Assembly (NCBI GenBank): GCA_015057325.1
Contig: SVEQ01000005.1
Location: 124,001 to 188,000, forward strand
Source of the DNA: Lachnospiraceae bacterium
GTDB lineage: Bacteria; Bacillota; Clostridia; Lachnospirales; Lachnospiraceae
Direction of reading: 5' to 3'
DNA length: 64,000 nucleotides
A program made the position numbers and the translations under genes. A model generated the notes under the pieces. It was not told the origin of the DNA and did not search any database. It worked only from the letters and a program-made list of their open reading frames with translations. Numbering within the stretch: the first letter of the stretch is position 1; each line of letters begins with the position of its first letter. This document shows, one piece after another, positions 32,291 to 41,336 of this stretch.

Positions 32291-34966
32291 TTATTTCTTC
32301 CTCAAATACAAAAGTCCAAACGTTCCGCGTCCGCAGTTAACTGCAATAACCGGCGAAGCCTTCTGGAAATATATTGTTTCAAATTGCATTCTCTCTTCAA
32401 TACGTTCACGTATCCAATCCATATCTTTCTTTGTAAGACCAACGTACGTTACAAAAAGGATCTTTGTGTCAATATCCATTGGGTATTTAAGTACTGAATC
32501 AATATACTTTCTCCATGCTCGCTCTCTCGCACCAAAATATATCCTGCCGACGCCCAAATCACCCTTCTTCATAACAAGAACAGGTCTTGCCATAATTGAC
32601 TTTGTAATTCTTGCAATTCGAGGACTAACCTGACCGGCTCTTGCAAGGAAATCAAGGTTATCAACGACAAAACTTGTGTTAACACGTTCTTTTATAACTT
32701 CCAATTCTTCCATAATCTCATCAGGACGCTTACCTTCTTTTACAAGTCTGCACGCCTCTAACGCCATAAGTCCATGTCCGCTGGACAAATGTCCCGTATC
32801 AAAAATCTTCACATTATCAAACGCCTTTGCAGCTTCGACCGCCGTAAAGTACGCACTGTTAGCAAGTCCCTTAGAAATAGATATATGTATAATATCATTT
32901 GCACCATGCAGATTTTCCGCAAAAAACGCTTCCATTTTTTTGACAGACGGGCCACCGTATGAAACCACTTTATCGGGATCATCCATATAGCTTAGAAGTC
33001 CCTGTGTCTCAATCTCTAGTCCATCCTTAAATGTTCCCTCTGCGGTATGAACAAGATGTGGCAATATGGCAATCTCGTACTTGTCGACAAGTTCCTGTGG
33101 CAAATCCGCAACACTCTCTGTAGTAATAGCAACAGCAACCTTTCTCTGACCTTTGTTCATCCAAGAGATTGTTTCCTGCAATATATCCTCGTCATCACCT
33201 ATAAGGTTTGTCACATCCGAAGGCAACAAACGATAGAGCTCTCTTTCAAGAAGATCACCCGAAATCGGCTTAACAAGATATCCCTCAAATCCCTCTTTCT
33301 CATAGAGTGCACGGCTGTCCCCGCCTGCATTTGCAGTAAGCGCAACGATTCTGGATTCCTTACAACGTCCGCCGACCTGCGTACGAATCGCCTTCATACA
33401 TTCAATACCATCCATTTCCGGCATTAAATGATCCATAAATATGACATGGTAATACTCATTCAACGTCTTTTGTAATGCATCTGCACCGCTTGATGCAGTT
33501 GTAAGCTGTACCTTTGTGTTACGCAAAAGCTTTGACACAACCAAAAGATTAGAAGCATTGTCGTCAACAACCAAAACCTTTGCCTCGGGCGCTTCAAATC
33601 TCGTCACATGCTCGTGACGTACATGCATCTCTTTCCTTGCTTCAATATCAATATCACCAATCTCCTGTTCCCCGGAAACTCTCTGAGGAATCTCGATTAT
33701 AAATGTTGTTCCTTCCGTATAAATACTGTTAACGGTTATCTTGCCACCCATCAAATCAACGAACTGTTTAACTATTGAAAGTCCAAGTCCCGTTCCTTCT
33801 ATATGACGGTTTTTCTCCTCATCAACACGGCGAAATGCAGCGAACAGATATGGAATGCTCTCCTTCTTAATTCCCATTCCGGTATCAGTTACGGAATAAA
33901 TAACATTAAGCATACCGTCCGAGTATTCTCCTCGCTGAACCGACAATGATACCGAACCTTCACTTGTGTATTTTATAGCGTTATTAAGCACATTTATAAG
34001 CACCTGCTTAATTCTTACTTCGTCACCTACAAGCTCTGCCGGAATATCAGGTGCAACATTAATATGAAACTCAAGATTCTTCTCTTTTGCACGAAGCCAC
34101 AACATTCCGACAATATCCGACAACATATCTCCTGAGTTGTAAACAACAGGAGTCAACTGCATCTGCCCGGAAGCAAGCTTGGACATATCAAGGATATCAT
34201 TTATCAAATGAAGAAGCATTTTACTTGCCGACTGAATATTAATCGCATCCTCTGCAACCTCATCTGAAATGTTCTCGCGAAGAATCATTTCGTTAAGTCC
34301 GATAATTGTGTTAATCGGTGTACGTATCTCATGGCTCATGTTAGAGAAAAACTGGTTCTGCGCCTGGTTTAACTGCTCGATTTCCACGCGTTGCTCATCC
34401 GAACGCTTCACCTCGCGACGATACATACGCGACTGGAATATAAGCGAAATACTTATACATATACACACCAGCACAAGCGCATTAAATGAATACAAATGAA
34501 CGGCAAGGGTATCCTTTTGCTCAATCATATGAGGTGCATAATAAGAAATACACCAACATATTATTACCGAAAAAGCATTAAGCACATAAAAAAGCACTCG
34601 TCTCTTTCCGCTTAAGCACACCGTAACATAGAACACACAATACACAAACCAGATTGGTGCGTCTCCACTGATTCCTCCATCAAAAATATAGGAACAGGGA
34701 AGAAAGAATAACGTCATACCAAATGCAGCTAAAACGGAACCGATTTTTTCTTTGTGGTGCTTTATTGCAACCAAAGCCACAGCTGTGTACATAAACAAAA
34801 CGCCAAACAAAAACACGGTTTCCTCTATACGTTGTCCAAGAATCAAATCCTCAATCAACATCAGAGTCCAAGCGGCAACCGATACAACAGATAGTACTAC
34901 ATACATCGCCTCCTGCAAATCGCGATTGCCATCATAAATAATACTCTTTATCTTTTTATAAATCAT
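32291..34966 (-). CDS. Hybrid histidine kinase fused to a receiver and a C-terminal DegV (fatty-acid-binding-like) domain
   Basis: An 891-aa protein with four regions. Residues about 20-178 hold six transmembrane helices with short loops and no large external domain. Residues 185-430 are a kinase core: His212 in FFSNMSHEIRTP, N-box NVLNNAIKYT, G1 DTGMGI and G2 GTGLGLSIVK. Residues 462-582 are a receiver with VLVVDDN, Asp512 in IFMDHLMPEMDG and Lys566 in GYLVKPIS. Residues 609-891 are a DegV domain (AVAITTESVADLPQELVDKYEIAILP, HISISKGLANSAY, DNLDFLARAG, IMARPVLVMKKGDLG). DegV/FakB proteins bind fatty acids. Several usual ligand-contact motifs differ: TSQPS is YGGPS and GGRI is AGQV. GGAG precedes the ATG; the gene follows the HPt kinase by 4 bp. 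Confidence 0.88.
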   Translation of the reverse strand: MIYKKIKSIIYDGNRDLQEAMYVVLSVVSVAAWTLMLIEDLILGQRIEETVFLFGVLFMYTAVALVAIKHHKEKIGSVLAAFGMTLFFLPCSYIFDGGISGDAPIWFVYCVFYVTVCLSGKRRVLFYVLNAFSVIICWCISYYAPHMIEQKDTLAVHLYSFNALVLVCICISISLIFQSRMYRREVKRSDEQRVEIEQLNQAQNQFFSNMSHEIRTPINTIIGLNEMILRENISDEVAEDAINIQSASKMLLHLINDILDMSKLASGQMQLTPVVYNSGDMLSDIVGMLWLRAKEKNLEFHINVAPDIPAELVGDEVRIKQVLINVLNNAIKYTSEGSVSLSVQRGEYSDGMLNVIYSVTDTGMGIKKESIPYLFAAFRRVDEEKNRHIEGTGLGLSIVKQFVDLMGGKITVNSIYTEGTTFIIEIPQRVSGEQEIGDIDIEARKEMHVRHEHVTRFEAPEAKVLVVDDNASNLLVVSKLLRNTKVQLTTASSGADALQKTLNEYYHVIFMDHLMPEMDGIECMKAIRTQVGGRCKESRIVALTANAGGDSRALYEKEGFEGYLVKPISGDLLERELYRLLPSDVTNLIGDDEDILQETISWMNKGQRKVAVAITTESVADLPQELVDKYEIAILPHLVHTAEGTFKDGLEIETQGLLSYMDDPDKVVSYGGPSVKKMEAFFAENLHGANDIIHISISKGLANSAYFTAVEAAKAFDNVKIFDTGHLSSGHGLMALEACRLVKEGKRPDEIMEELEVIKERVNTSFVVDNLDFLARAGQVSPRIARITKSIMARPVLVMKKGDLGVGRIYFGARERAWRKYIDSVLKYPMDIDTKILFVTYVGLTKKDMDWIRERIEERMQFETIYFQKASPVIAVNCGRGTFGLLYLRKK

Positions 34967-34970
34967 AGCA

Positions 34971-37565
34971 CTACTCCTTTACCGGTTCAAAAATCAAAAC
35001 ATCGTCATCCTCTTTTTTCTCCGGAGCAAATATAAGCACCTCATCATCGCTTTCCTCCGCAGAACTTTCTGCAGGCTTGCTGTCCGCCTGTATATCATAG
35101 ATATCAGCTATATATTGCATAGTTGATTTGTATGACGACATCAATGCATTGTGGTGACCTTCTATGTAAGTTGCCTGTTCTTTCTTCGCTGCAAATTCCA
35201 AATCCTTTGCCTGCTCAGAAAGCTGTATGTTACCAAGCATTTTGGCGGTAGTTTTTAGTGCATGAACATATATCTCGTAATTCTTGAAATCCTTTTCACT
35301 GTAGTATCCTTCAATCTTGTTTTGCTTCTCTGGATATTCTTCTACAAACTGTCGAAGCAGCGCTTCATACAGTTCATCATCATTCTGACAATACTCAAGG
35401 CCAAGTGATGTATCAATTCCAAAATTATTAAGTTTGTCATAAGTTGAAAGGTCTTGATTTTCTGCCTCATTTTCCTCTAAACTTAGCGAGGAATCCACCA
35501 CAACCTCAGGCTTCTCGTATGTAATTGCAGACTTTGGAAGAACCTTCTTAAGCACTCGTTCAAGCTCCTGCTTTTCGACCGGCTTACTGACAAATCCATC
35601 AAAACCAACTGACAAAAACATTTCCTTTGCCGAACTTACCGCATTGGCAGTTAATGCCACTATCGGAAGATCCCTGTTATCTCCGGAGCGAATTGAACGG
35701 ATATGCTTCATGGCCTCAACTCCATCCATGCCCGGCATCATGTGATCCATAAATATGATATCGTACTCATTTTCATGACACATATCAATAGAATCCTGTC
35801 CGGAAGCGGCGGTTGAAACCACCATACCGTAACGCTTAAATATGCTCTTTGCAACGCTTAAGTTCATCGGCTCATCATCAACAACCAATGCTCTTATTCC
35901 GTTACAGTACATAACGTCTTCACTGTTATCCGATTGTGTAGCATCTGTATTAAGTACAGAAACAACAGGGAAACAATAGAATGGTTTCTCCATTACTCTA
36001 AGCTTAGAGCCGCGCGGAAGTTTAAATGTGCTGTCAGCAACTATTACTACGACCATATCTGATGCGAGTCTCTCCAATTCTTTAGACGCCAGCATATATT
36101 CCTCGGCAGCCACAAAAAGATGTGTGAGCTTAACCGATGAGGTAAGTTTTTTAAGATTAGCTACATTATCAACTCTGTGCATTTGAACACCAAGTCCGAC
36201 AACAATGTGACCAAGCATTGCGTTATAGTACTCACGAACATTAGGGTTCTTATATTTTTCAAAATGAAGAAATGCACCGATACATAATTCTTCGCGATTA
36301 TTAAGTGACATGCAGCTTCTAGGATCAACAACAGTTTGAGGTAACGAAACTCTTACGGTTGTACCTGCTCCCGGCTTACTTATAACCATCATGAAACCGC
36401 CAAGTGCGGATACAAAACCTGATGTAATGGAAAGACCAAGTCCAAGACCACCTGTGTGTCTGGTTCTTCCGGAATCCGCCTGATAGAAGCCGTCCATAAT
36501 ACGCTCTGTCTCTTCCTCATCCATACCGATACCGGTGTCTGTAACCTCTAATAAAAGGTTGACTCCGTACTCCTGCTTCTCAACAGAAAGTCGTGCATAC
36601 ACACCACCCTCGCTCGTGTATTTCAAACCATTCATAATAAGGTGATGAAGTATCTTTTTTAACTTGTTGATATCCGTATTCATAACGGCAGGTATTGCAG
36701 GGTCAACATCTATTACAAGCTCTATATGTTCCGGCTTATATGGACGAATCTCCGTAACGAGATCATTTAACACCGAAGATAATTCGTAATCTTCATAATT
36801 ATTTGCAAGTTTATTACTGTCAATCTCAGAGTAATCAAGAATATCACTTATTTGTTCAGCCACGCGTCGTCCTGCATTACGCACCGATATAAGATTTGAA
36901 AGTTTTTCCTCGTCGCGCTCATTGTTAATGCATATTCCGGTAAGTCCCATAATTGCATTAATCGGCGTTCTGATTTCGTGAGATACGTTAGCAAGGAAAT
37001 CATTAAGTCGCTGGGTCGCGTATGTAAGCTGTTCAATCTCACCACGTGAATGGTCAAGCACCTGCACCCATTTTGAAATTATTGTTCTGGAAATCCAGCT
37101 TATAGTGGTGATTGCGGCAATGTGAAGTAATGCTCGCGTGATAATAAGAGAATCAAACTTTTCGCCCGCGTGCCACATAGAAACAAGGCCATACCCAAAA
37201 GTTATGTAATAAAGAATCTGTAAAAATGTTATAAGTGATCTGATTCCCGTCATTGTAAAAAGAATCAGCACAATAGACATGACCGCCACGGTATCAAAAA
37301 CACTTGTCGGGTGACTGCCATAAAAGAAAAATGTAAACATTATAAATATAGAGTAAATCCATACTCTGTAACGTTCGTTAAATCTCTGCTGGATATGTAT
37401 AAACCAACATACTCCAACCCCCATTAAAATGAGCATAACCGCCCACATTTCCCATCCAAGCAAAATGGACTCTACCGTAAGGATGCCTGAAAAAATAGTA
37501 TAGCTTAACAGTATCGTCATCTGAGATGTTTGGAAAAGCTCGTTTCTTTCTTCTACCTTCTTCAT
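34971..37565 (-). CDS. Hybrid histidine kinase with receiver and HPt domains
   Basis: An 864-aa protein: six transmembrane helices (about 17-165) without a large external domain; kinase core with His196 in FLANVSHEIRTPINAIMG, N-box LIMNGLKYT and GGLGLGLSI; a region of about 420-540 shaped like a receiver without the usual Asp (pseudo-receiver); a true receiver at about 555-680 with Asp607 in IFMDHMMPGMDG; and an HPt domain at about 705-820 with His768 in VHALKTTAKMLG. The last 25 residues repeat an acidic motif (DDEVLIFAPEKK, DDDVLIFEPVKE). The gene starts 1 bp after the HD-GYP gene, with AAGGAG upstream. The HPt makes it the likely phosphorelay hub of the cluster. Confidence 0.88.
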   Translation of the reverse strand: MKKVEERNELFQTSQMTILLSYTIFSGILTVESILLGWEMWAVMLILMGVGVCWFIHIQQRFNERYRVWIYSIFIMFTFFFYGSHPTSVFDTVAVMSIVLILFTMTGIRSLITFLQILYYITFGYGLVSMWHAGEKFDSLIITRALLHIAAITTISWISRTIISKWVQVLDHSRGEIEQLTYATQRLNDFLANVSHEIRTPINAIMGLTGICINNERDEEKLSNLISVRNAGRRVAEQISDILDYSEIDSNKLANNYEDYELSSVLNDLVTEIRPYKPEHIELVIDVDPAIPAVMNTDINKLKKILHHLIMNGLKYTSEGGVYARLSVEKQEYGVNLLLEVTDTGIGMDEEETERIMDGFYQADSGRTRHTGGLGLGLSITSGFVSALGGFMMVISKPGAGTTVRVSLPQTVVDPRSCMSLNNREELCIGAFLHFEKYKNPNVREYYNAMLGHIVVGLGVQMHRVDNVANLKKLTSSVKLTHLFVAAEEYMLASKELERLASDMVVVIVADSTFKLPRGSKLRVMEKPFYCFPVVSVLNTDATQSDNSEDVMYCNGIRALVVDDEPMNLSVAKSIFKRYGMVVSTAASGQDSIDMCHENEYDIIFMDHMMPGMDGVEAMKHIRSIRSGDNRDLPIVALTANAVSSAKEMFLSVGFDGFVSKPVEKQELERVLKKVLPKSAITYEKPEVVVDSSLSLEENEAENQDLSTYDKLNNFGIDTSLGLEYCQNDDELYEALLRQFVEEYPEKQNKIEGYYSEKDFKNYEIYVHALKTTAKMLGNIQLSEQAKDLEFAAKKEQATYIEGHHNALMSSYKSTMQYIADIYDIQADSKPAESSAEESDDEVLIFAPEKKEDDDVLIFEPVKE

Positions 37566-37566
37566 A

Positions 37567-39030
37567 TTACGACTCCTTCATTGAATAATCCGTATCTTCG
37601 TCTATCATTTCCAACATAATGTCAGCAAATGTTGGATCAAATTGCGTCCCATGTCCGTTGCCGATTTCTTCCCTAACAACCTCCTGCGGAAGAATTCCTC
37701 TATAACTACGTCTGCTTGACATCGCGTCATAAGCATCTGCAACTGCAATAATTCTGGCCTCTTCAGGAATCTCTTCCCCTTTGAGTCCGTCCGGATATCC
37801 TTTGCCGTCGTAACGTTCATGATGCCACCTTGCTCCTGTTGCAAGTTCGGGCATCTCTTTAATATTTTTAAGTATTCTCGCTCCCATAACAGGATGATTT
37901 TTGATAACCTCAAACTCATCCTCTGTGAGCCTTGCAGGTTTATTGATTACCGCATCCGGTATTCCAATTTTACCTACATCATGTAGTAACCCCATCATGT
38001 AAATATCGTTTTGTTTTTCAGGAGAGTAACCTGCCCTCCCGGCAATTAATTTCGCATATTGTGCAACACGTCCCGAATGACCGTTAGTGTAAGTATCCTT
38101 TGCATCAATCGCCTCCGCAAGGGATTTAACGACATGCATCATAAGCTTCTGGTTTTCCTTCGTCTTAATATCAACCATACTGCTTAGATACTTTTTAAGA
38201 GTTTCAAGCTCAAGTATGTGACGTATACGAAGTATGAGTACCTCGGGTACAAACGGTTTCTTAATGAAATCTATAGCACCAAGTGATAAACCTCGCTTCT
38301 CCGCTTCGATACTTTCATCCGCGGTAAGAAATACAACCGGAATATCTGCAACCGCATGCTCCATGCTTCTAAGCTTTTCAAGCGTCTCGAATCCGTCCAT
38401 GCCTTCCATCTTGACATCTAAAAGAATCAAATCCGGAAGATTTTCCTCTAAGTGTTTAAGCAGGGCCTGTCCAGAGCGAAGAGCCGCCACATAATAACCT
38501 GCTTTACTAAGTGTATGTCCCGCAAGTTGAAGAATCGAAGCGTCATCATCAACGACAACTATCCTCTTCTCTCTTACCGAATCGATTCTATTCTCTTCAC
38601 CGGCAATATATTCAATCTCATAGGTAAGCGCTGTATCGTCTCTGTACTGTTCGTACCACTTTTCCAATATTGTTCCCAAAAGCTTGGAAACCGCTGCTTC
38701 CTTAATGTCCGCAGCAAGCAGAAAATACTGGTTGGCACCGCTTCTCGTCATAATATCAGACTTTCTGAAATACGCCATTACAAAGTCTCCGAATTTGTCA
38801 CACGCATCGCGATAACTTTCCGAATCTCTGCCATCTACTTTTCCAATCGTAAAAAGAATCTTACAGGCACTTTTTTTGTTGAGAACTACATGGTGCAAAA
38901 CATACCTATACACGTGAGAAAATGATTCCGCATCCAACTGCAAGGCAACATTTGATACAGCATTATCTCCAAACTTTTTCGAAAGCGTGCTTATACTTAA
39001 TTCTTCGCGGTCAAACTGTTGATACTCCAA
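37567..39030 (-). CDS. Degenerate GGDEF - receiver - HD-GYP protein (probable cyclic-di-GMP phosphodiesterase)
   Basis: A 487-aa cytoplasmic output protein. Residues about 40-145 resemble a GGDEF fold whose signature has decayed to RSGANQYFLLA. Residues 155-275 are a receiver with Asp205 in LILLDVKMEGMDG. Residues about 295-480 are an HD-GYP domain with metal and catalytic segments LLHDVGKIGIPD (His350-Asp351) and HHERYDGKGYPDGL (403-416). It would hydrolyse cyclic di-GMP when phosphorylated. It starts at TTG (39030) with GAGGAGGGG upstream. It is 35 bp after the GH9 gene and 1 bp before the HPt kinase gene. Confidence 0.87.
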   Translation of the reverse strand: MEYQQFDREELSISTLSKKFGDNAVSNVALQLDAESFSHVYRYVLHHVVLNKKSACKILFTIGKVDGRDSESYRDACDKFGDFVMAYFRKSDIMTRSGANQYFLLAADIKEAAVSKLLGTILEKWYEQYRDDTALTYEIEYIAGEENRIDSVREKRIVVVDDDASILQLAGHTLSKAGYYVAALRSGQALLKHLEENLPDLILLDVKMEGMDGFETLEKLRSMEHAVADIPVVFLTADESIEAEKRGLSLGAIDFIKKPFVPEVLILRIRHILELETLKKYLSSMVDIKTKENQKLMMHVVKSLAEAIDAKDTYTNGHSGRVAQYAKLIAGRAGYSPEKQNDIYMMGLLHDVGKIGIPDAVINKPARLTEDEFEVIKNHPVMGARILKNIKEMPELATGARWHHERYDGKGYPDGLKGEEIPEEARIIAVADAYDAMSSRRSYRGILPQEVVREEIGNGHGTQFDPTFADIMLEMIDEDTDYSMKES

Positions 39031-39065: not shown

Positions 39066-41336
39066 TTACTTCTCTTCTAACGCCGTCATAAGATATATAA
39101 GCGGCGAGTTCCAATATATTGTTATCTCATTACAAGAATAACTCTGCACGTTATCTACATAGCATTTTGCAGGTGCAACATCTGCAAGCACTGCCTTTGC
39201 ATATGGATCCTCAAGATTACTGTTTGGTCCGCCAACAAGCATACCCGACATGCACTTTCCTGTTGCCTGCGAAGGTCTGTGGTGAGGATTTTGTGGGCTT
39301 AAATATCCCTGTCCGGTAACGAAACAATATCCTGTTGCGTTAAGTCCGAGAATATAATCAAGCTGTTTCTTTGCGCACTCAACATATTTTTCATTCGGAG
39401 CAATTTCGTTAGCCATAAGAAGTACCATTCCACTATTGCTAACACCCATATTTGAACCCCAGTAAAATGTTGTTGTAAAATCTACACCGTATGGATTCCT
39501 GCTGCAAGTCTCTACCGACTCATCCGCTTTACCAATGAAATAATCCTTTATTGTCTTTAATAAATTACTTGAATCTGTAAGAAGTTTATCATTGGTAAGT
39601 GCTGCATAACAACCATACATTCCGACACTTGCCCAACCCATTCCGTCAAGGTTTCTCTCATCATCAATATATGATGCCATTTCTGTCTTGTACTTTTCAT
39701 CACCTACCGTCTTGTAAAGCTCTGCCGAAGCCCAGAAATATTCATCTCTGTCATATGTATCAGGATACTCACCTGTTGAAATCTCATCAGGATTTTTGAA
39801 ACCTCTTTGTGCTTTGTGCTCCTCAATATAATCCCAAGCCTTCTTGGCTGCTTCAATATATTCTGAACCTGCCTTCTTATAATCTGCATCATCAATTGTT
39901 TCAAAAACTCTTCCTGCCATCGCCATAGCAGCAGCAAAATCTCCTGATGCGGTACTTGAGATAGGTGAAACTATAAGTTCTTCTGTCTCATCCTGTGGCA
40001 TTACCTCGCCCGGGAAGCTTGCGCAGGTAACCTTGTGATAAACACCACCTGATTCCTTATCCTGCATTTTCATCATCCAGTCAAGTTCGTACTTTGCTTC
40101 CTCCAAAAGCTGTTTATTACCTGAAACCTCATATGCCAATACAAGATCAGCTACAGCCTTAGCTCCCGCTACAACATATCTTCCGTAGTCACCGGCATCA
40201 TGCCATCCACCGCTTACATCAATCTTCTTATCAGTTCCGTAAATTGTTGCCTCACCTGTGTGACATGCAGGATGTGCGAAATCTCCTGCCTCATCACTTG
40301 TAAGTTCCATTCCGCATCTTTGCAGATACATCATTTTAACTACGCTGTCATATGTATCATCATATACGTTATCAGCAATCTTAAACTCACCGGACTCCTC
40401 TCCCTTGCCGGTTACAATCTTATATGTTCCTTCTTTATCAAGCTTTGTAAAATCTCCTGTGGAATCTGTTTCCCCACCTGCTCTGTACTCAGAAGGTTCT
40501 GAAAGAGTTCCTTCAAATGCAGTCTCTCCGCTTGCCGTATCAACCACAGTAAATGTTGTATCATCCTCTGCAAGGTCGGTAAATACTGCTGTTTTTGTGT
40601 CCTTGGTTCTGTAACCAACCTGATTAACCTTAATCTTTGGTGCCTCTGCAAGAGCCTCAACCTCCTGCATGTTACTTCCGTCATTAAGAACCAGAGAAAT
40701 GTTATCTATCATTATCTGATGTGCTCCTATACTTGCTGCATCTATACCTGCTTCCTTCATGCTGTCTGTGAATCCCAAGTTAAAACAAAATCTCGGTGCA
40801 GGGTCGCTTCCCTCTTCCATAGTAAACTCTGTCGAGTAGTGCTGCACCTCGCTTGTTACAGATACATTGTCTGTTGCATATGCATGATAATCCCCACCGT
40901 TTATCTGTATTCTCCATGCAATGTCACGATCTATTGTTGAATGGATATCAAAGTCGAGCTGATATACGCCGCCCTCCTGCATTGCAAATCCGTCATAAAA
41001 TACCTGAACACCATGCTCAACATTACCGATATTAGCTATGTCAACAACAAGCTCACCGTCGTCATTTACATCAAGTTTAACGCTTCCGCCGTTAGTAGTA
41101 TATGTGCCAAATGTTCCAACACCGTCAGAGAAGTCACCACCCTTTATCATGTTAACTCCTGCCTCAATTTCATCTGAAGCATCTGCAATTTCTTCCGTAT
41201 CTTCGGATACTTCCTCTGTCGCTTCCGTGTCTTCAGGCTCCGTCTTTGCTTCGTCTGCTTTATTGCCACAAGCACAAAGACTTAACATCATTGTTGATGC
41301 CATTGCAATCGCGAGCACTTTCTTAAATCTTCTCAT
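39066..41336 (-). CDS. Lipoprotein GH9 cellulase with N-terminal carbohydrate-binding and Ig-like domains
   Basis: A 756-aa enzyme. A lipoprotein signal ends LCAC (Cys23), so it is anchored to the membrane outer face; an acidic linker follows. A CBM4/9-like beta-sandwich lies at about 60-215 (NMIKGGDFSDGVGTFGTY to MIDNISLVL). A CelD_N Ig-like domain lies at about 230-320 (IKVNQVGYRTKDTKTAVF), then the GH9 (alpha/alpha)6 barrel at about 330-756 with SGGWHDAGDYGRYV (catalytic Asp pair), NPHHRPSQ and the C-terminal NEITIYWNSPLIYL (acid Glu). It cleaves beta-1,4-glucan. AAGGAGG precedes the ATG. It lies 46 bp after deoC and 35 bp before the signalling genes, all co-oriented. Confidence 0.93.
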   Translation of the reverse strand: MRRFKKVLAIAMASTMMLSLCACGNKADEAKTEPEDTEATEEVSEDTEEIADASDEIEAGVNMIKGGDFSDGVGTFGTYTTNGGSVKLDVNDDGELVVDIANIGNVEHGVQVFYDGFAMQEGGVYQLDFDIHSTIDRDIAWRIQINGGDYHAYATDNVSVTSEVQHYSTEFTMEEGSDPAPRFCFNLGFTDSMKEAGIDAASIGAHQIMIDNISLVLNDGSNMQEVEALAEAPKIKVNQVGYRTKDTKTAVFTDLAEDDTTFTVVDTASGETAFEGTLSEPSEYRAGGETDSTGDFTKLDKEGTYKIVTGKGEESGEFKIADNVYDDTYDSVVKMMYLQRCGMELTSDEAGDFAHPACHTGEATIYGTDKKIDVSGGWHDAGDYGRYVVAGAKAVADLVLAYEVSGNKQLLEEAKYELDWMMKMQDKESGGVYHKVTCASFPGEVMPQDETEELIVSPISSTASGDFAAAMAMAGRVFETIDDADYKKAGSEYIEAAKKAWDYIEEHKAQRGFKNPDEISTGEYPDTYDRDEYFWASAELYKTVGDEKYKTEMASYIDDERNLDGMGWASVGMYGCYAALTNDKLLTDSSNLLKTIKDYFIGKADESVETCSRNPYGVDFTTTFYWGSNMGVSNSGMVLLMANEIAPNEKYVECAKKQLDYILGLNATGYCFVTGQGYLSPQNPHHRPSQATGKCMSGMLVGGPNSNLEDPYAKAVLADVAPAKCYVDNVQSYSCNEITIYWNSPLIYLMTALEEK

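Follow-up and report, generated by a model that had tools for sequence, protein, structure and literature searches.

The window analysed here is a stretch of 64,000 nucleotides from a Lachnospiraceae bacterium (GenBank assembly GCA_015057325.1, contig SVEQ01000005.1, positions 124,001 to 188,000), and its subject is gene B, which encodes a membrane hybrid histidine kinase ending in a DegV domain. FakB and DegV proteins are carriers that hand fatty acids to FakA. Gene B and its parts lie as follows, in window positions:

32291-34966, minus strand: gene B, membrane hybrid histidine kinase with a C-terminal DegV domain, 891 amino acids, ATG start
34382-34966, minus strand: N-terminal membrane region, residues 1-195, five to six helices, no Pfam sensor domain above cut-off
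34166-34363, minus strand: HisKA domain, residues 202-267, phosphoacceptor His212 (Pfam and motif)
33683-34027, minus strand: HATPase_c domain, residues 314-428, N, G1 and G2 boxes present (Pfam and motif)
33245-33577, minus strand: receiver (Response_reg), residues 464-574, phosphoacceptor Asp512, and Lys566 (Pfam and alignment)
32300-33133, minus strand: DegV domain, residues 612-889 (Pfam, alignment and model)

A preliminary description of this DNA, made from its letters, had read a membrane region, a kinase core with His212, a receiver with Asp512 and Lys566 and a complete DegV domain in a single frame, and the 891-residue open reading frame (ORF) and its Pfam matches agree with it on each of these points. 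The strand, absent from that description, is minus; frame 1 of the plus strand of 32291-34966 contains many stops. The motifs SHEIRTP, NNAIKYT, DTGMGI, GTGLGL and MDHLMPEMDG start at residues 211, 328, 361, 391 and 511, and His212, Asp512 and Lys566 are invariant across 25 aligned fused proteins. Judged by its sequence, gene B is a hybrid histidine kinase, with HisKA, HATPase_c and receiver domains and intact catalytic residues. The DegV match (PF02645) scores 145.1 bits against a gathering cut-off of 27 and spans positions 2-279 of a 280-position profile, and the NCBIfam model TIGR00762 gives 168.7 bits (cut-off 99.7). The membrane region itself was recovered by a hydropathy scan, which finds five helices in gene B rather than the six described earlier; among the remaining four genomic copies, one has five and three have six, and six helices in gene B are plausible.

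The survey across genomes that the preliminary description had proposed found the architecture again in the source genome, its genus, its family and another family. Of the ten DegV matches in the source genome (3.05 Mb), five are standalone and the other five lie on long frames. Apart from gene B itself, the four long-frame DegVs share its domain order, two of them with a histidine phosphotransfer (Hpt) domain after the DegV. By hand count, the genus has 18 DegV matches in frames of at least 650 amino acids, in 9 of 26 genomes, and the family at least 53 long-frame matches in at least 36 of 250 genomes, among matches down to about E 1.4e-39, the weakest that the family list includes. Loci were annotated from 33 of these 36 family genomes, and kinase, receiver and DegV share one frame in 32. 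A phylum-wide sample of 398 genomes (E 1e-45) gave long frames only in the source genome (G000), G205 and G517, all of the same family as the window, while a class sample of 391 genomes (E 1e-72) added three genomes from one genus of another family, in all three of which kinase, receiver and DegV share one frame. A search of named genomes returned 174 relatives, of which the best 80 by likeness to the gene B branch were kept, so that counts from this set lean to close kin; the records are called Lachnospiraceae, Oscillospiraceae, Ruminococcus, Saccharofermentans and others by their depositors, and many come from the rumen. A family set of 39 loci was picked from the family and phylum lists. 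Together the fetched loci contain 130 frames with kinase, receiver and DegV, of which 127 differ from one another over the final 200 residues. Three kinds of variant were also found: at L122:5431-8304 the DegV is N-terminal, followed by the membrane part, kinase and receiver, with the contig ending inside the gene; at L123 and L124 it sits on a kinase-like protein that matches no receiver profile (by Pfam for L123); and at L025, L026, L094 and L095 it is a separate gene after a hybrid kinase. The fusion is not described in the available excerpts of the open-licence literature searched, including PMC3146951, PMC10138225, PMC12688256, PMC9912610 and PMC3091722.

AlphaFold2 predicts a DegV fold for the gene B domain, with a predicted local distance difference test score (pLDDT) of 94.8, and the closest solved structures to this model are DegV and FakB proteins, many with a fatty acid bound. 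The structure prediction proposed in the preliminary description thus indicates, with high confidence, that the domain keeps the DegV/FakB fold. In the alignment, Arg173, Arg205 and His270 of FakB1 correspond to Gln779, Phe811 and Asn877 of gene B. Excerpts of the FakB1 study (PMC8892158) describe Arg205 as the key residue for FakA binding, which also contacts the membrane, Arg173 as needed for catalysis and His270 as part of the network around the fatty acid carboxylate, and call Arg173 and Arg205 completely conserved and essential in FakB. Gene B has neither the arginine for catalysis nor the one for FakA and membrane binding, and it does not preserve the FakB carboxylate network (Thr62, Ser95, Ser171 and His270), in which the Ser95 position is ambiguous, being Ala in one alignment and Asn in another. 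The NCBIfam model NF038249, which covers FakB1 only, scores 117.3 bits on gene B, below its cut-off of 350.

These residues were counted across aligned DegVs, 136 kinase-linked and 43 standalone, once identical rows had been removed; the former include five sequences labelled as split, the contig-cut L120, the permuted L122 and the receiver-less L123 and L124, and the latter include FakB1 itself and a fusion at L117. Arg205 is retained in 1 of 136 kinase-linked DegVs against 42 of 43 standalone ones. Arg173 is retained in 20 of the kinase-linked DegVs, a further 90 having Gln there, and in all 43 standalone ones, and Arg173, Arg205 and His270 occur together in 0 of 136 against 41 of 43. From these losses and the roles of the three residues in FakB1, we infer that the kinase-linked DegVs have left the Fak pathway. 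The preliminary description had instead pointed to the altered motifs YGGPS and AGQV, which do align with Thr62-Pro65 and Ser171-Ile174 of FakB1. The tyrosine of YGGPS is uncommon even among kinase-linked DegVs (2/136), the glutamine of AGQV is their norm (90/136), and because Ser171 is replaced by Gly in 42 of 43 standalone DegVs, the change to Ala777 in gene B is little informative. The most telling changes are the losses of Arg205 and His270, rather than these motifs.

A quick maximum likelihood tree was built from 116 DegV domains, with 13 of the 80 named loci taken, and with L014, L024, L098 and any DegV matches shorter than 250 amino acids left out beforehand. It places 66 fused and five split-labelled domains opposite 45 standalone ones across a branch with a Shimodaira-Hasegawa-like approximate likelihood ratio test (SH-aLRT) value of 100, and the kinase-linked DegVs form one clade. 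Four of the five split labels are real, L096 being a fused form cut by a contig edge. L026, L094 and L095 branch at the base of the kinase-linked side, at a fork that the quick method leaves unordered, and L025 sits inside that side on a long branch. The kinase upstream of L094 and L095 has the layout of gene A, the neighbour of gene B described below; that of L026, cut by the contig end, has the middle, receiver and Hpt parts of gene A, and that of L025 is a hybrid kinase without a match to the middle-domain or Hpt profiles. The basal position of L026, L094 and L095 would fit a history in which the DegV began as its own gene next to a hybrid kinase and was fused to it later. In four orthologue pairs the ratio of nonsynonymous to synonymous divergence (dN/dS) of the DegV domain is roughly 0.04-0.14, at dS 0.6-1.8, and together with the preserved predicted fold this indicates, at the level of sequence, that the domain is under purifying selection and in use. 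The membrane part of gene B (34382-34966) has a dS of only 0.084 against its counterpart at L017, from a second species, compared with 0.64-1.08 for kinase, receiver and DegV, as if a short tract had been recently exchanged.

Upstream of gene B, two further genes on the same strand complete a cassette:

34971-37565, minus strand: gene A, a second membrane hybrid kinase with HisKA (187-250), HATPase_c (298-411), receiver (560-671) and Hpt-like (736-795) domains, ending 4 bases before gene B
35895-36296, minus strand: middle domain of gene A, with a receiver-like fold in the model (pseudo-receiver; model and alignment)
37567-39030, minus strand: response regulator with receiver (157-269) and HD-GYP (HD_5, 304-449) domains, 1 base before gene A (Pfam)

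The Hpt match of gene A scores 24.0 bits, slightly below the cut-off of 24.6, and the alignment of its middle domain has no conserved phosphoacceptor Asp. The HD-GYP protein carries HDVGK at residue 350 and HHERYDGKGYP at 403.

This arrangement recurs, by counts that depend on how we chose ORFs and on profiles derived from the protein family itself. Gene A precedes the gene B type in all five fusions of the source genome. The named loci contain 77 fused proteins, three of them without an upstream gene on the contig, and gene A lies directly upstream in 70 of the other 74; at L139, L151 and L172, which count as lacking it, an opposite-strand ORF was picked. The gene A kinase is in frame in 68 of the 70, only part of gene A lying in the adjoining frame in two of these 70 and in two of the 30 family cases. 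A gene for cyclic di-GMP (c-di-GMP) turnover, defined as receiver-linked HD-GYP or GGDEF, is directly upstream of gene A in 58 of the 68 named pairs, with gene A at a contig edge in three. The commonest such neighbour (36/68) encodes a single protein in which our profiles and motifs find a pair of receivers together with GGDEF and HD-GYP, a layout borne out by Pfam for one case, L149. The family set has 34 fused proteins, with gene A upstream in 30 of 33; a c-di-GMP gene is directly upstream of gene A in 15 of 28 pairs, and in 17 if up to two genes upstream and three downstream are allowed. The corresponding figures are 5/8 and 7/8 in the genus and 2/5 and 3/5 in the source genome, and, as an approximate background, the same rule applied to 17 standalone-DegV loci finds c-di-GMP genes in 2 of 83 ORFs of at least 300 amino acids.

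The HD-GYP protein of the window matches residues 313-789 of the 793-residue L149 protein at 54% identity. Its N-terminal 150 residues (38581-39030) match an L149 stretch that follows the GGDEF domain and lacks a GGDEF motif; by eye this looks like a decayed GGDEF domain. Further upstream, at a distance of 35 bases from the HD-GYP gene, is a family 9 glycoside hydrolase gene (39066-41336). At L017 the cassette is preceded by what seems, by eye, to be this same gene, truncated at the edge of the fetched sequence. Elsewhere in the window's genome (L009:3740-18694, G000 contig C22), two cassettes of genes A and B stand in tandem: a receiver-HD-GYP gene precedes the first, an Hpt protein separates the two, and the second is followed by a 250-residue receiver protein and a seven-transmembrane (7TM) HD-GYP protein.

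With moderate confidence, we read the DegV domain of gene B as a FakB-related domain turned regulatory, probably the acyl-lipid-sensing part of a phosphorelay that controls c-di-GMP. This reading is built on domain order, gene order, the single clade, the loss of FakA-related residues, the predicted fold and purifying selection; beyond these, we infer that a lipid is bound, which lipid it is, that DegV acts as the input and which way the phosphate runs. The genes from 39030 down to 32291 would form one phosphorelay, in which a pair of membrane hybrid kinases would act with a receiver-HD-GYP enzyme that breaks down c-di-GMP. The DegV domain, sharing ancestry with the FakB acyl-carrier fold and presumably no longer serving FakA, would receive an acyl lipid (a free fatty acid or a relative) from the membrane or cytosol, and the resulting change of shape would shift the balance between the kinase and phosphatase states of the protein to which it is attached. 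From the receivers of A and B, phosphate would then pass to the Hpt domain of A, or of B in the long forms, and on to the receiver of the c-di-GMP enzyme. The output of the cassette is likely this separate, adjoining enzyme, which would leave DegV as a regulatory part. The N-terminal, receiver-less and separate-gene variants likewise argue against a plain receiver-driven output and lean towards a regulatory or sensing role. The fatty-acid-linked signalling of the preliminary description thus survives in its predicted fold and, as to function, in a lipid-linked role as the most economical reading.

Several observations weigh against this. The changes in gene B extend to the carboxylate network, where Thr62, Ser171 and His270 align with Tyr670, Ala777 and Asn877; of the 136 kinase-linked DegVs, 55 retain Thr62 (Ser in 37, Pro in 32) and only one retains His270, which is Asn in 132, while 41 of 43 standalone ones have that histidine. 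Compared pair by pair, the DegV domain has diverged faster (identity 0.80-0.88) than the kinase core (0.90-0.97), and many of its dS values are near or above 1, which makes dN/dS rough. Among the family pairs, 13 of 28 lack a c-di-GMP gene directly upstream of gene A, three of them at a contig edge. The automated rule finds none for the source-genome cassettes L010 and L011, the latter having an adjoining GGDEF match by Pfam, and the background count took ORFs from anywhere in the loci, positions not being matched. Finally, DegV comes after the receiver, where an output domain usually sits, and a DegV that has lost both ligand and partner could be a mere scaffold.

The scaffold alternative, in which a ligand-free DegV would be a docking or dimer surface holding the two kinases and the c-di-GMP enzyme together, is unlikely but deserves serious consideration, given the lost FakB contact residues, the near-constant presence of gene A next door and the clade-typical T641, G644, A689, S871 and N877, which could form a protein contact. 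Purifying selection on the whole domain argues against it, as does the strong conservation of the old carboxylate site: 132 of 136 have Asn at the His270 position, a pattern that suggests an altered ligand site and not a decaying one. We give less credence to DegV as an output, whereby phosphorylation of Asp512 would change the domain so that fatty acid is captured or released at the membrane, the kinase controlling a lipid pool and not the reverse. The position after the receiver in nearly all fused forms displayed, the receiver phosphoacceptor motif in 122 of 130 fused frames and the predicted retention of the fold would all suit such an output. The three kinds of variant speak against it, as do the Hpt domain after DegV in two long forms of the source genome, the separate adjoining receiver proteins that are the likely output enzymes and the loss of Arg205, a membrane- and FakA-binding residue in FakB1 (PMC8892158, in excerpt). 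It is very improbable that the domain feeds the genome's FakA for lipid synthesis as an ordinary FakB, attached to the kinase just to be placed there. The single FakA-type gene of the genome and the predicted fold, that of FakB, would suit this, but Arg173 and Arg205, essential in FakB according to the same excerpts, are both changed, the FakB1 model score is 117.3 bits against a cut-off of 350, and five standalone DegVs are present for feeding FakA. That an assembly or sequencing error fused two genes can practically be discarded, nothing in its favour having been found and the frameshift proposed earlier as a refutation having been looked for and rejected because the architecture recurs at four other loci of the genome (five fusion loci in all) and in 130 fused frames, with 18 long-frame matches in 9 of 26 genus genomes and at least 53 in at least 36 of 250 family genomes.

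What emerges is a distinct DegV clade without hand-over residues, tied by fusion or gene order to phosphorelays that often adjoin c-di-GMP enzymes, with Gln779, Phe811 and Asn877 as clear residues for testing. If a lipid is bound, the acyl-lipid-sensing reading would provide an input that couples membrane or dietary fatty acids to lifestyle decisions of gut and rumen Clostridia, an input not described in the excerpts of the open-licence literature searched, and the presence of five copies in a single genome of 3 Mb suggests that there are several signals.

Among known systems, gene B differs from FakB1 (PDB 5uto) and DegV (PDB 3fys) in that its domain sits within a membrane kinase, has Arg173, Arg205 and His270 replaced and lies on a supported branch apart from standalone DegVs. 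FakA-type proteins (C-terminal domain, PDB 6w6b) carry DAK2 and FakA-middle domains, without kinase or receiver domains; at L117:4117-5898, DAK2, the FakA middle domain and a full-length DegV match are fused, without equivalents of Arg205 and His270. The best NCBIfam matches of the gene B kinase-receiver core are BarA- and TorS-type hybrid kinases, far below their cut-offs (293.3 against 890 and 283.8 against 676.5, respectively). An ordinary standalone DegV gene lies beside a hybrid kinase at L012:7038-10383 in the source genome, and beside a pair of response regulator and HAMP kinase at L083:4286-7005 and L090:5961-8843, a second kind of DegV-signalling neighbourhood. For FakB4 of Streptococcus pyogenes, the authors propose acyl binding without passage to phospholipid synthesis (PMC10138225, in excerpt); a non-feeding role for a DegV protein has thus been suggested before.

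A further likeness is to RpfC/RpfG of Xanthomonas, in which, according to excerpts of PMC5391125, a fatty acid, the diffusible signal factor (DSF), is bound by a hybrid kinase of the membrane. That kinase has receiver and Hpt domains and acts with an HD-GYP enzyme. Gene A is likewise a hybrid membrane kinase with receiver and Hpt domains adjoining a receiver-HD-GYP enzyme (37567-39030), and the cassette resembles the Xanthomonas pair in layout only. RpfC senses through a short N-terminal stretch and those excerpts describe no DegV domain in it, whereas here a second kinase, gene B, carries the DegV. More tentatively, in a class of histidine kinases present in many gut and rumen Clostridia, a domain related to FakB but released from fatty acid kinase might sense acyl lipids inside the cell and thereby set c-di-GMP. 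Such kinases would be the Gram-positive equivalent, assembled from other parts, of the RpfC/RpfG route from fatty acid to c-di-GMP.
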